27,094 bases of DNA from the IMG/VR virus record IMGVR_UViG_3300043772_002529, positions 1 through 27,094 of that record; one strand, 5' to 3'. The notes beneath the pieces are model-generated. The model did no database searches. It saw nothing but the letters and a program-made list of their open reading frames with translations, and was not told the origin of the DNA. Made by a program: the position numbers and the translations under genes. Below, in pieces: positions 3,067 to 11,188 of this stretch (position 1 is its first letter; each line of letters begins with the position of its first letter). The DNA is from a virus.

Positions 3067-3072
3067 TTTTGT

Positions 3073-3153
3073 AGTCAGGACAGGATTCGAACCTGTATTC
3101 TCCTCAGTATTCTTATGTTGACAAAGGCACATTACCAATTCCGCCACCTGACT
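3073..3153 (-). tRNA. tRNA-Leu-like gene, possible CAA anticodon
   Basis: 81 nt. Acceptor AGTCAGG/CCTGACT and T arm ACAGG, loop TTCGAAT, CCTGT are perfect, and the D arm is of the Leu type. The best anticodon loop is GTCAACA (U33, anticodon CAA), but its stem has only CTT/AAG plus a T-T mismatch. The variable arm does not pair well. Probably a degenerate Leu tRNA or a tRNA-like RNA. Confidence 0.55.
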
Positions 3154-3500: not shown

Positions 3501-3523
3501 TATTACCTCAATATTACATGTGT

Positions 3524-3602
3524 AGTCAGGACAGGATTCGAACCGGTAATTCCGGTTTAACCCCTCGACAGGGCCACGTCTATCCAATTCCGCCACCTGA
3601 CT
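3524..3602 (-). tRNA. tRNA-like gene, Leu-type 5' half, anticodon loop without U33
   Basis: 79 nt with acceptor AGTCAGG/CCTGACT. The anticodon-position stem GGCCC/GGGTT has loop TGTCGAG, where position 33 is G rather than U; GAG (Leu) or TCG could be read. The T stem has one mismatch (ACCGG/CCTGT). AACCGG in the variable region can pair with CCGGTT at the T arm, a 6-bp alternative fold that would break the T arm. A tRNA-like RNA or decaying tRNA-Leu. Confidence 0.55.
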
Positions 3603-3756: not shown

Positions 3757-3773
3757 AACTCTTTATTTTTTGT

Positions 3774-3895
3774 AGTCAGGACAGGACTCGAACCTGTGGT
3801 TGACGTTATTACGAATATTTCATCGTACCTCCCGTTATGCAGCCAACATACCGTTCAAGGGTTACCCCATTGTGGACACCTTCCACCGCCTGACT
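3774..3895 (-). tRNA. Oversized tRNA-like gene (122 nt)
   Basis: Acceptor AGTCAGG/CCTGACT and T arm ACAGG, loop TTCGAGT, CCTGT are perfect. The D-position hairpin GTGGA/TCCAC has a 5-nt loop. An extra GGG-TAA-CCC hairpin follows. An arm TATG, loop TTGGCTG, CATA has U33 and would read as anticodon GGC (Ala). The variable region is about 37 nt with a TACGA/TCGTA stem. At 122 nt it is far outside normal tRNA size, with two extra hairpins. Confidence 0.55.
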
Positions 3896-3896
3896 A

Positions 3897-4466
3897 TAAA
3901 AAGACATCATTAGAATTTTGACCATTACATAGTTTCCTAAGTGTGAATATACTCCGTTGATATCTTTTTTTGAGGTTGAGATCCTCTGTGTTGTGTGCCA
4001 ATCATTGTATCACATTTACTAATATTTGATTCCTTTCTCAAGGGAACAACACAATATTGTTGATAGTGATGGAGTACCCGGTCTCGCTCCAATCTTAACT
4101 GCTTGCCCGAGTTTTAGGGTGCACCGGCAGAAGGGTGATGACTATCCTTGGCCTACCTAGTTCGTCGACAACATAAGTAGAGGCGTCCACTATCAATATT
4201 TTAAAAAATGGTAAGACCTTAAGATTTACTTATTCGTGAGTCACCTCATCCCTACTACCTATACCTCACCTTTAACATCCGTTCTACCCAAACCATCGTT
4301 TATATACCTGTTATCCTCTCGGATATCTTTGAGTACCTCCTCAACTTGTAATCTGATAGGGGCTCCATTTTGCTCATCATTTCTGATTCCCTGTGGGGTT
4401 CTGCTGATATAGGTCTATCTGCTATCTTACCAATTTAATATTTTCAAAGAACGTTTTCCTTATTTG
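3897..4466 (-). ncRNA. Large structured noncoding RNA (about 570 nt) with its own promoter
   Basis: No gene fits this stretch. It starts just after a Bacteroidota-type promoter (4472-4503) and carries a boxA-like leader (4452-4444). Two long-range domains are visible on the minus strand. One is closed by GGTAAGA (4431-4425) with TCTTACC (4216-4210), enclosing about 210 nt. The second is closed by GATAGTG (4194-4188) with CACTATC (4068-4062) and extended by AATATT on both sides. It runs into the oversized tRNA-like gene. Size, tRNA proximity and ornate fold resemble the GOLLD/ROOL class of phage RNAs; this is inference, not a family match. Confidence 0.55.
4444..4452 (-). promoter_or_regulatory. 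boxA-like antitermination element
   Basis: Minus strand GTTCTTTGA about 13 nt after the predicted start of transcription. boxA (E. coli rrn: GCTCTTTAACA) binds NusB/S10 and prevents early termination of rRNA. The same string occurs in two other tRNA leaders in this window. Confidence 0.5.
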
Positions 4467-4471
4467 TTTTA

Positions 4472-4503
4472 CAAAGATATATAATCTATTTCAATCTACC
4501 AAA
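4472..4503 (-). promoter_or_regulatory. Bacteroidota-type promoter for the large RNA
   Basis: Minus strand TTTG (4503-4500), 20 nt, TATCTTTG (4479-4472). The predicted start near 4465 is followed by the boxA-like leader and the structured RNA. Confidence 0.8.
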
Positions 4504-4587
4504 TGTTTTTTAAAAAAAAATTAATTTTTAGGTTAGTTTGTATGACTTTTTTGTGGGTTCGTGATATTTATATATAAAGGAGGTATT

Positions 4588-5493
4588 ATGTTTAAATGTA
4601 AAATTTGTAATCGTAAGTTAGATAATTTTGGTAACTTTAATCAACACATTAAAAAGTGTGAAAAATTATCACAAATAAAAGATGATATCATCAATCTTTA
4701 TGTAAATGAAGATTATTCAGTTAGGGATTTAAGAAAAAAATTTAAAGTCCAATCTGATGATATAAAAATTATATTAGGAGATAAAGTTAGGTCACTATCC
4801 GAATCAAATAAAATTGCTCGTAAAAAATACCCAGATAATTTCAAACATACTGAAGAAAGTAAAAAAATAATGCGAGAGAAAAGATTGGAATTTATGAAAA
4901 ATAACCCAGAAAAAACCGCTTGGAGGTTATCAAATGTCTCTTACCCTGAAAAATTATGTATTGAATATATTGAAAAAAATGGTTTAGATAAAAAATATTC
5001 AATAGTTAGAGAATATTCGGTTTTTCCTTATTTTGTTGATTTTGCTTTCTTAAATGAAATGGTTGCGGTTGAAATTGATGGATCACAACATCTTTTACCG
5101 GAAAGAAAAGAAAGAGACAATAAAAAAGATAAACTGTTAAATGATTTGGGTTGGTTGGTTGTAAGAATTTCAGAGAAAGAAATAAAAACAAATATTGAAA
5201 ATGTTTTTAATGAAATTATTTCAATATTAAAAGACAAACCAAAAATTAATAATCACCGAATCGGATTGGTTGTTAAACCAAAAAAATATCAAAAAAAGGA
5301 AAGAAATGAATTTGGTTTTACTGAGTTAGAAATTTTATCCAAATTTAAACAACGAAAGGTAGAAAGACCCCCATTATCGGTTTTATTAGATCAAACTAAA
5401 CAAATGGGGTTTCCTAAAACCGGAAAACTTTATAATGTATCCGAAAATACAATTAGAAAGTGGATAAAAGCATACCATAAAGGTTTAGGTTAG
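4588..5493 (+). CDS. Free-standing Vsr-like (DUF559/EDxHD-type) homing endonuclease
   Basis: A 301-residue protein starting at ATG 4588, which has a strong ribosome site (AAAGGAGG, 5 nt spacing) just after the ATATTTAT box; an earlier GTG at 4561 lies inside that box and is rejected. An N-terminal zinc-finger-like unit (C-x2-C...H-x4-C in CKICNRKL...HIKKC) leads into a helical DNA-binding linker. The central nuclease core carries SYPEK, FVDFAF and VEIDGSQH, the acidic and His residues of the Vsr/EDxHD nuclease fold, then GWLVVRISEKE. The C-terminus has a helix-turn-helix-like segment (GKLYNVSENTIRKWI). It runs against the array and ends next to the tRNA-Glu gene, so it probably targets a tRNA-array site. 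Confidence 0.85.
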   Translation: MFKCKICNRKLDNFGNFNQHIKKCEKLSQIKDDIINLYVNEDYSVRDLRKKFKVQSDDIKIILGDKVRSLSESNKIARKKYPDNFKHTEESKKIMREKRLEFMKNNPEKTAWRLSNVSYPEKLCIEYIEKNGLDKKYSIVREYSVFPYFVDFAFLNEMVAVEIDGSQHLLPERKERDNKKDKLLNDLGWLVVRISEKEIKTNIENVFNEIISILKDKPKINNHRIGLVVKPKKYQKKERNEFGFTELEILSKFKQRKVERPPLSVLLDQTKQMGFPKTGKLYNVSENTIRKWIKAYHKGLG

Positions 5494-5646: not shown

Positions 5647-5733
5647 AGTTAAGATGAGTCGTGGACTTGTGTACCACTTGTCCCCCTTTAAGTTTCTCAC
5701 TAACCCTAGGTGTGGGGAAACTCATCTTGTTTG
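5647..5733 (-). ncRNA. Structured leader of the Asp-Glu tRNA transcript
   Basis: Between the promoter (5739-5770) and tRNA-Asp the leader is closed by a 9-bp stem AAGATGAGT/ACTCATCTT, with inner C- and G-rich stretches that can pair. The stem starts within a few bases of the predicted start site and ends about 4 nt before the tRNA, so it may guide processing or block the 5' end. No known family. Confidence 0.45.
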
Positions 5734-7243: not shown

Positions 7244-7488
7244 GGATTTGATCGATGGTTTGTTCCCCATCACCTGTTGACGTGCACATCAGAGCAGGGT
7301 CCATTACAGAGTACCTTGGGTCATTTCCGTCCTCTCAGTAAAGGTTGCGATCCTACGAGAGCCAAGGTTCCTTTCATCCGCGCTAATCGGACTTCTGTAA
7401 GATTTATTTTAAAAAGACACACAATAGTGAGTGTAGTAAAGTCCCCATAAACCAGAGAATATGGGGTTTCTCACTAAGTATGTCTCAG
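7244..7488 (-). ncRNA. Structured RNA: long hairpin plus multi-branch domain
   Basis: No gene. The 5' part (7485-7415) is one long hairpin of three stacked helices: AGACATAC/GTGTGTCT, TAGTGAG/CTCACTA and CCCCATA/TATGGGG, followed by TTTTT. The next domain is closed by TTACAGA/TCTGTAA (7400-7394 with 7310-7304) and holds TCCG/CGGA, CCTTGG/CCAAGG and CTCTC/GAGAG; the last has a T-loop-like ATCGCAA tip. A GATGG/CCATC hairpin and the terminator at 7208-7243 follow. The set of nested perfect helices makes a structured RNA likely; its family is unknown. Confidence 0.55.
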
Positions 7489-7859: not shown

Positions 7860-8486
7860 TTATTTTTTTCTTCTGTAAACCTCACCTTTATAGTGTTTAT
7901 CAACAAATCTTTTTACTTGTGAATGTGTTAAACCTAAAATATCAGATACTTTTTTTACCCACCCATAAGTTGTCATATCAACATCTTTAATTAAATCTAA
8001 CCTTTCAGTGACAATATCTTCAGTTAATTTATTAAAACCACCGAATTTATCACCCATTTTTTTTGCATTATTAATTCTAAATTCTAAAGGTACCGATTCC
8101 CAAGTTTTTTTTCTTTTTTCTTTATTATCCCACGAACCAGCAATACTTCCATATTTTAATCCGTGTAATCGTCTCTTTTCTTCTGTCCAATAATTTTTAT
8201 TTACGTGATCAAAAGAACCTAAACCACCCAAAGAAATGTTATATGTGTTTTTATTAGTTACAAAACTTTCATTAACTATCTCACTTTCCATCTGAAACAT
8301 TTGCTTTGGGTTATCAAATATTGCTAAATATTTTTTATCAAAGTTATCAATTCCGTATTTTTTAATGGCCTCCTTTATATTTTTTCCAGACCCCATATAC
8401 CCATCGTTAAGATTTTCAGTTTTATGTACACCAACATAAATCTTACCATTAACTTTATTTGTTATTTCATAAACTATGTATTTCAT
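7860..8486 (-). CDS. GIY-YIG homing endonuclease
   Basis: A 208-residue protein. The GIY-YIG domain covers about residues 1-95: YIVYEITNKVNGKIYVGVHKT holds the two motif strands (YIVY and YVG replace GIY and YIG), followed by YMGSGKNI, the helix IKKYGIDNF, and the catalytic Glu region MESEIV and N-x-S-x-GG. The C-terminal part (about 100-208) has charged NUMOD-like repeats (KYGSIAGSW, GDKFGGFNK) and an HTH-like tail (VSDILGLTHSQVKRFV). The start has a strong ribosome site (GGAGG) and an ATATTTAT box upstream. It ends 5 nt before tRNA-Ile(TAT). Such genes spread into tRNA loci. Confidence 0.9.
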   Translation of the reverse strand: MKYIVYEITNKVNGKIYVGVHKTENLNDGYMGSGKNIKEAIKKYGIDNFDKKYLAIFDNPKQMFQMESEIVNESFVTNKNTYNISLGGLGSFDHVNKNYWTEEKRRLHGLKYGSIAGSWDNKEKRKKTWESVPLEFRINNAKKMGDKFGGFNKLTEDIVTERLDLIKDVDMTTYGWVKKVSDILGLTHSQVKRFVDKHYKGEVYRRKK

Positions 8487-8745: not shown

Positions 8746-8752
8746 AATATGT

Positions 8753-8858
8753 AGTCAAAGAAGGATTCGAACCTATCACGAGATAAGTGTGAGATTCACC
8801 TTACCCCAAGGAGTTTTGAGTATTATCTCCCAGCGTCTACCAATTCCGCCACTTGACT
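8753..8858 (-). tRNA. tRNA-Leu(CAA)-like with enlarged anticodon loop and variable arm
   Basis: 106 nt. Acceptor AGTCAAG/TTTGACT, Leu-type D arm. Anticodon stem GGGAG/CTCCT holds a 13-nt loop: six extra bases (ATAATA) precede a normal CTCAAAA loop. The variable arm is unusually long, GGTAAG/CTTATC plus GTGA/TCAC, about 10 bp. The T stem is weak (three pairs). If the six bases were removed it would be a standard Leu(CAA). Confidence 0.65.
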
Positions 8859-10677: not shown

Positions 10678-11088
10678 TTATTTACTATTGGTTTTTAACA
10701 TATCACGTTCTTGGTCTCTTTTTTTGATTGTTTCCCTCTTGTCATATAATTTTTTTCCTCTACCAATAACGATTTCCAATTTTATCAATCCCTTGTCGTT
10801 GGTGTAAATTTTATATGGAACTATTGTCAAACCCTTTTCCATACGTTTTTCAATGTCTCTGATTTCCTTTTTATTTAAAAGTAACTTAATTTCTCTTTTT
10901 TCTTCAGATGTTGTTATATTTAAGTTTCTAACAAACATCTCGCAGTTCTTTATATAACAATAGGTATCAACAATACTGACCTTATTATCTTTAATTGATT
11001 TAACTTCATTTCCACTTAAAATAATACCACAAGAATACTTTTCAATAATCTCATATTCAAATTGAACTTTTTTGTTTGTTATTAACAT
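10678..11088 (-). CDS. smpB: SmpB, tmRNA-binding protein
   Basis: A 136-residue protein that matches SmpB (usually 150-160 residues) across its length. NKKVQFEYEIIEKYSCGIILSGNEVKSI is the N-terminal OB-fold block, followed by SIVDTYCYIKNCEMFV, LLLNKKEI and the hallmark GLTIVPYKIYTNDKGLIKLEI...GRGKKLYDKR near residues 82-119. The C-terminal tail (KKRDQERDMLK) is the helix that inserts into the ribosome. The gene starts 15 nt after tRNA-Leu(TAG) on the same transcript. No tmRNA gene was found in this window, so it would work with host tmRNA or one encoded elsewhere. SmpB in a phage tRNA island suggests control of stalled ribosomes. Confidence 0.92.
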   Translation of the reverse strand: MLITNKKVQFEYEIIEKYSCGIILSGNEVKSIKDNKVSIVDTYCYIKNCEMFVRNLNITTSEEKREIKLLLNKKEIRDIEKRMEKGLTIVPYKIYTNDKGLIKLEIVIGRGKKLYDKRETIKKRDQERDMLKTNSK

Positions 11089-11103
11089 TGTTTAATTTTT
11101 TGT

Positions 11104-11188
11104 ACCTCCGGAGAGACTCGAACTCTCACTCCTATTTAAAAGGAATCCGGGTCTAAGCCGGATGTGTCTGCCATTCCACCACGAGGGT
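11104..11188 (-). tRNA. tRNA-Leu(TAG)
   Basis: Acceptor ACCCTCG/CGGAGGT with one mismatch, Leu-type D arm, anticodon stem ATCCGG/CCGGAT with loop CTTAGAC (TAG), variable arm TCCT/AGGA, T arm GAGAG/CTCTC. Confidence 0.92.

Follow-up and report, generated by a model that had tools for sequence, protein, structure and literature searches.

The window analyzed here is the whole stretch of viral DNA, 27,094 nucleotides, covering positions 1 to 27,094 of the IMG/VR record IMGVR_UViG_3300043772_002529. We focused on positions 3897 to 4466 and their flanks. The features found, all on the minus strand, are as follows; the promoter, the boxA-like leader, both closing stems of A and B and the tRNA-like gene lie at the positions proposed in a preliminary description or within a few bases of them.

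4471-4503, minus strand: promoter of the Bacteroidota type, TTTG-N20-TATCTTTG
4442-4452, minus strand: boxA-like leader, GTTCTTTGAAA
4210-4431, minus strand: RNA A, 222 nt in its long form, with the closing stem GGTAAGA/TCTTACC
4062-4194, minus strand: RNA B, 133 nt, with the closing stem GATAGTG/CACTATC, the loop GTCGAC and the palindromic hairpin CGGTGCACC
3972-4052, minus strand: RNA C, 81 nt, made of the frame GTGTTGTTCCCTTGAGAAAGGAA, a 35-nt payload, ACAACAC and the hairpin GAGGATCTCAACCTC
3898-3969, minus strand: RNA D, 72 nt, with the closing stem AAAGATATCA/TGATGTCTTT
3773-3896, minus strand: tRNA-like RNA (TLR), 124 nt, with the acceptor AGTCAGG/CCTGACT and the T arm ACAGGTTCGAGTCCTGT

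The preliminary description had pictured about 570 nt of gene-free DNA behind a Bacteroidota promoter and a boxA-like leader, running into a tRNA-like gene, and each of these elements was found again. The longest open reading frames of the stretch encode 51 amino acids on the minus strand and 58 on the plus strand, none credible as a gene; every frame has 6 to 16 stops across the 570 nt, and no conserved open reading frame was detected in positions 3897 to 4466. The promoter/leader block, in which GTTCTTTGAAA is a putative boxA, is repeated at 6 to 8 sites in the window, mostly ahead of tRNA genes or operons. The setting is thus that of noncoding phage RNA beside tRNAs behind a host-type promoter and leader, as had been claimed. 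A search of the stretch with Rfam 15 gave nothing at or above the gathering threshold and, up to an E value of 10, only two chance snoRNA matches. The corresponding modules of relatives carrying A, B and C, also scanned with Rfam 15, likewise yielded no family above the gathering score. The Rfam pRNA family, representing phi29-type packaging RNA, was likewise unmatched in the stretch up to E = 10. The folding energy of the entire region on the minus strand was at the level of shuffled sequences (z = 0.0). We therefore rejected folding energy as evidence for an RNA, and the case for RNA rests on comparison.

Six IMG/VR contigs have an exact 29-mer of the stretch in common, and their comparison splits it into modules. 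The two closing stems noted before are both exact, with 4425 to 4431 pairing with 4210 to 4216 and 4188 to 4194 pairing with 4062 to 4068 (minus strand). They do not form a long-range nest, however: they are consecutive, each closing its own module, and so delimit two neighboring RNAs. A, B and C occur together and adjoining in three relatives (L013, L015 and L016). B is present without A or C in L014, and B and C lie directly behind a tRNA-Asp gene, without A, in L017 and L018. Short linkers, such as AATATT, separate the modules. We conclude with high confidence that the stretch consists of at least four separate small RNAs, A to D, followed by the TLR. In L014, another closed RNA of 134 nt (GTTTAACGG...CCGTTAAAC, 10981-11114, minus strand) stands where A would be, and in L017 (1980-2060) and L018 (6013-6093) C is followed by one more element closed by a stem, GGTAAATGTAATTAGG...CCTAATTACATTACC.

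RNA B was searched for in IMG/VR with a degenerate pattern of 19 bases taken from its 3' part, which returned 85 stretches with 51 unique full sequences. The pattern found no B in the 84,980 prokaryote genomes of GTDB, where three exact matches in bacterial genomes were dismissed as chance, and BLAST found none in the INPHARED phages. B was also unmatched in Rfam. A resemblance to 5S rRNA, prompted by GTTAAG...GGTACT, was discarded after no Rfam match appeared up to E = 10. A covariance model found a single B in every one of 20 records of 130 to 373 kb; it also detected B in 15 of 50 records first reached via other modules, 4 of which were common to the 20. In total, 31 large-phage records have B, one copy each. 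B is therefore a new RNA family, so far in large phages only, and it is virtually certain that it is a structured RNA and a genuine family. Novelty here is judged against Rfam, INPHARED, prokaryote genomes and open papers; the 224 candidate RNAs of Weinberg 2017 (Nucleic Acids Research) lie outside this comparison, and families reported here could already be described elsewhere.

In the structure of B, a closing helix leads into an arm of stacked helices topped by the loop GUCGACA, a second arm (CNGC/GCNG) capped by a short tetraloop hairpin, and a third hairpin with GGNN...NNCC around CGAGACGGGUA. With 40 sequences aligned by plain MAFFT, 91.4% of the cells were paired, compared with 29 to 44% for slid structures, and both sides had changed in 26 of 35 pairs, so that the covariation stood out against slid and shuffled controls. 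The GATAGTG/CACTATC helix put forward in the preliminary description changed on both sides in 8 of its 9 pairs, with none broken. Among 14 sequences outside the model (9 distinct), 96.3% of the positions were paired and 22 of 34 pairs had changed on both sides, in an alignment fitted to the B model and hence biased toward structure.

The 4-nt loop of B is self-complementary (GGCC, UGCA, AGCU or CGCG) in 49 of the 51 unique sequences, and an additional palindrome, GAUC, was found in B sequences not used for the model. The outer bases of the loop (alignment columns 84 to 87) were GC in 25 cases, UA in 13, AU in 1 and CG in 1, and were never unpaired, even though no pairing is possible between them inside one chain since all four columns lie within the 4-nt loop. 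The palindrome class changed at least 10 times on a tree made without those columns; this tree is approximate because B recombines. The other hairpin loop reads GUCGAC in all sequences but that of L152, which has GUGCAC, likewise a palindrome; having varied only once, it carries no covariation signal. There were counter-cases. Six of 14 rows found by the model, representing few distinct types, have an 11-nt version, GAGGGCCTC, in which a 5-nt loop contains GGCC but is no longer an exact palindrome, and the loop of L382, GGCU, is self-complementary only with G-U pairs. Kretsch and colleagues took tetranucleotide switching from GGCC to GAUC or AGCU as support for kissing loops in OLE and GOLLD (PMC12286853), the loops concerned being OLE L9.3 and GOLLD L21a. 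A self-complementary loop that varies by paired changes impossible within one molecule is the mark of homo-oligomeric ornate RNAs, and B bears it. Because B displays the signature published for OLE and GOLLD, it very probably self-associates, as a dimer joined through the palindromic tetraloop. With two self-complementary loops, it could also build chains or closed rings.

Alternatively, B could act as a monomer, with the palindrome arising from a site at the DNA level (protein binding or restriction) or from alternative folding. The case for oligomers is read from sequences, and protein-binding sites in DNA are commonly palindromic. However, the letters of the palindrome change freely while its self-complementarity is kept, unlike those of a fixed-sequence site, and the element coincides exactly with a hairpin loop between covarying stems. 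An alternative intramolecular helix involving the 3' half of the palindrome was rejected, as it paired at the level of chance (60.4%, compared with 60.7% for shuffles). We thus regard a monomeric B as improbable and self-association as the better reading.

RNA A has about 24 relatives, in a long form (222 nt) and a short form (113 nt) that differ by one internal domain. It displays GNRA-type tetraloops (GUGA, GCAA and GUAA) on a covarying stem. Covariation was found in its proposed helices, 11 of 59 predicted pairs having changed on both sides, and is weaker than in B because the alignment is 92% identical; the slid and shuffled controls apply to B. RNA D was found in seven phage contigs including this one, in differing neighborhoods: directly after C in L013 and L016, and without A to C in L088 and L365 to L367, where a tRNA or TLR lies on one side of it and a further TLR on the other. 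Its structure is weakly tested, with a single change from U-G to C-G.

RNA C, with 102 to 103 unique members, combines a near-constant 5' frame (GTGTTGTTCCCTTGAGAAAGGAA) and a 3' frame (ACAACAC and the hairpin) with payloads of 23 to 106 nt; kissing of its UGAG/CUCA loops is a candidate interaction only, as the search pattern fixed one of the two. A second 3' version of C (ACAACACAAATGAGTTCTCAGC...) runs on into a larger RNA, where two additional conserved stems enclose more variable segments. A larger RNA that opens with the C frame continues with CAAATGAGTTCTCAGCAAGTAGTTA...TAACTACGTGACCCTACTCTTAT...ATAAGAAAGAGGGTGCTAA, its conserved stems being separated by variable segments. It was seen in L091, L228, L257 to L262, L266, L271, L277, L282, L304, L309, L325 and others, and had no Rfam match in the loci scanned.

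Of a Leu-type tRNA, the TLRs retain the acceptor, the T arm and a segment resembling the D arm, whereas the anticodon and variable arms are replaced; in the TLR of the window, an unrelated domain stands in place of the tRNA middle. A tRNA was taken to have an anticodon arm with a 7-nt loop and a length of about 75 to 95 nt. At 124 nt, the TLR of the window received no ARAGORN call and no match to RF00005. Its length, along with an SmpB gene in the phage, raised the possibility of a tmRNA, which was set aside for want of an Rfam match. In the fetched loci, 376 distinct TLRs were found on this frame. Further TLRs on the same or a close frame lie in the window at 3071-3153, 3522-3602, about 1561-1664 and about 8750-8855 (minus strand). 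ARAGORN labels the first of these tRNA-Leu(caa) and the second tRNA-Arg(tcg), probably wrongly.

Clustering of the 455 payloads gave 335 groups, of which 270 were singletons. When the window was compared with L013, L015 and L016, A was 98 to 99%, B 99.2% and the C frames 96 to 100% identical; D was 100% identical in L013 and L016 and absent from L015. In the same comparisons, the payloads of C and of the TLR showed 44 to 51% identity, against 45 to 47% for shuffled letters. This chance-level identity between near-identical modules indicates that payloads were replaced as units and not mutated in place. The C payload of the window was 86% identical to one in L190. Because pattern searches favor conserved sequence, part of the invariance of the frames follows from the method; the diversity of the payloads does not. 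The payloads alone were weakly more structured than shuffles (mean z of -0.35 and -0.47), and we therefore make no claim of structure for all of them. Movement of payloads between C and TLR frames found no support, a single 21-nt match being the only sharing detected. Recombination between constant frames is the likeliest cause of the exchange, possibly helped by free-standing endonuclease genes in the array. A phage homing endonuclease was recently reported to amplify anti-defense loci against a tRNA-cleaving defense (PMC13096335); this result fits endonuclease-aided exchange, without being proof of it. The window holds a free-standing GIY-YIG endonuclease gene at 7860-8486 and, at 4561-5493 (plus strand), a gene for a DUF559/Vsr-like endonuclease, oriented divergently to the RNA operon; the start of this DUF559-type gene also adjoins the operon in L014, L015 and L016, though not in L013. 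The DUF559/Vsr-like enzyme is a possible agent of cassette exchange.

We also examined the surroundings of 86 B copies. On average, ARAGORN called 11.5 tRNA genes within 3 kb of a copy, without exception on the strand of B, and 85 of the copies had at least one tRNA within that distance. Placement of this kind is consistent with release by tRNA-processing enzymes. The modules might act in cis in the tRNA operon, as leader or processing elements (antitermination or RNase sites) that have no function once cleaved, as their position in tRNA operons, at times right behind the leader, would allow. This reading is unlikely, however, because 44 of the 86 B copies immediately follow a tRNA within an operon instead of lying in the leader, each record has a single B although the arrays hold many tRNA genes, and B carries the signature of a homo-oligomer. 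Six of 20 records with B also contain GOLLD at a different site, and in two huge phages (L009 and L010) GOLLD itself follows a leader of this type. Least likely is a single large ornate RNA of about 570 nt (GOLLD, ROOL or a new class) with deletable domains, as the preliminary description proposed; the contiguous noncoding stretch behind one promoter and the adjoining A, B and C of three relatives would suit it, but neither GOLLD nor ROOL matched at the Rfam gathering threshold or up to E = 10, the closing stems follow one another, GOLLD occurs separately in some of the same genomes, and B, C and D occur without the others and directly between tRNA genes, which led us to reject it. Elsewhere in the window, an SmpB gene (PF01668, 2e-41) lies at 10678-11088 (minus strand), and a promoter-driven, stem-closed noncoding element of 78 nt (AAGATGAGT...ACTCATCTT) at 5651-5728 (minus strand), before a tRNA-Asp/Glu pair. 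Nine of 20 B-bearing phage records encode SmpB, and tmRNA genes occur in L014, L098, L282 and L318.

Several separate modules are thus the reading we retain, and the stretch would be the front of one of the tRNA operons of the phage. The Bacteroidota-type promoter and boxA-like leader would drive a polycistronic transcript, which may be cut, like its tRNA neighbors, into stable A, B, C, D and TLR. Copies of B would join through the GUCGAC loop and the covarying palindromic tetraloop into dimers or larger homo-oligomers, as GOLLD, ROOL and OLE do, while C and the TLR would serve as fixed frames for payload RNAs exchanged between phages. Taken as a whole, this explanation is probable. As to function, the best of several ideas, offered tentatively, is that these are trans-acting structural or decoy RNAs during infection. 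Equally speculative is the broader proposal that large Bacteroidota phages carry exchangeable RNA cassettes, in which tRNA-like and C frames display payloads beside self-assembling RNAs such as B. If true, tRNA-type promoters would drive a natural repertoire of displayed or decoy RNAs, and an arms race with host defenses that target RNA would probably have shaped it.

B adds a small family, of 133 nt, to the very few natural RNAs for which sequence comparison supports homo-oligomers made of RNA only. It is kept as a single copy in many phage records of 130 to 373 kb and is small enough for quick structural work. More broadly, the tRNA islands of phages contain several RNA families not yet described, along with hundreds of different TLRs on one frame, which standard annotation misses or reports as odd tRNAs. 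With such small, exchangeable parts, the purpose of tRNA-island RNAs such as GOLLD and ROOL becomes testable.

Among known systems, freshwater-1 RNA (RF02979) is, like the modules, a small RNA of the same tRNA arrays, present in the window at 7247-7308 (minus strand, 85 bits) and in L017, L018 and L154; it is a separate family of 62 nt, unmatched within 3897-4466. The TLRs share the acceptor stem, a D-arm-like 5' part, the T arm and A73 with tRNA-Leu and tmRNA, but unrelated domains of about 10 to 130 nt replace the anticodon and variable arms, and the tmRNA model was unmatched. ROOL, a phage tRNA-island RNA like B, forms an RNA-only assembly (PMC12286853); it is about 660 nt long, and its Rfam model had no match in the stretch up to E = 10. 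GOLLD (RF02032) is, like B, a phage noncoding RNA beside tRNA islands, and the two can share one genome. GOLLD, of 400 to more than 800 nt, is unrelated to B in sequence and secondary structure; a match to RF02032 (3' domain, 416 positions, 150 bits) served as the test for it, and none was obtained in the stretch, even up to E = 10. GOLLD forms homo-oligomers through symmetric kissing loops with covarying palindromes (PMC12286853), the arrangement predicted for B. OLE is a large RNA of extremophile bacteria, in which we found no sequence similarity to B. Nevertheless, its loop L9.3 switches among palindromic tetraloops, GGCC, GAUC and AGCU (PMC12286853), much as the loop of B switches among GGCC, UGCA, AGCU, CGCG and GAUC.
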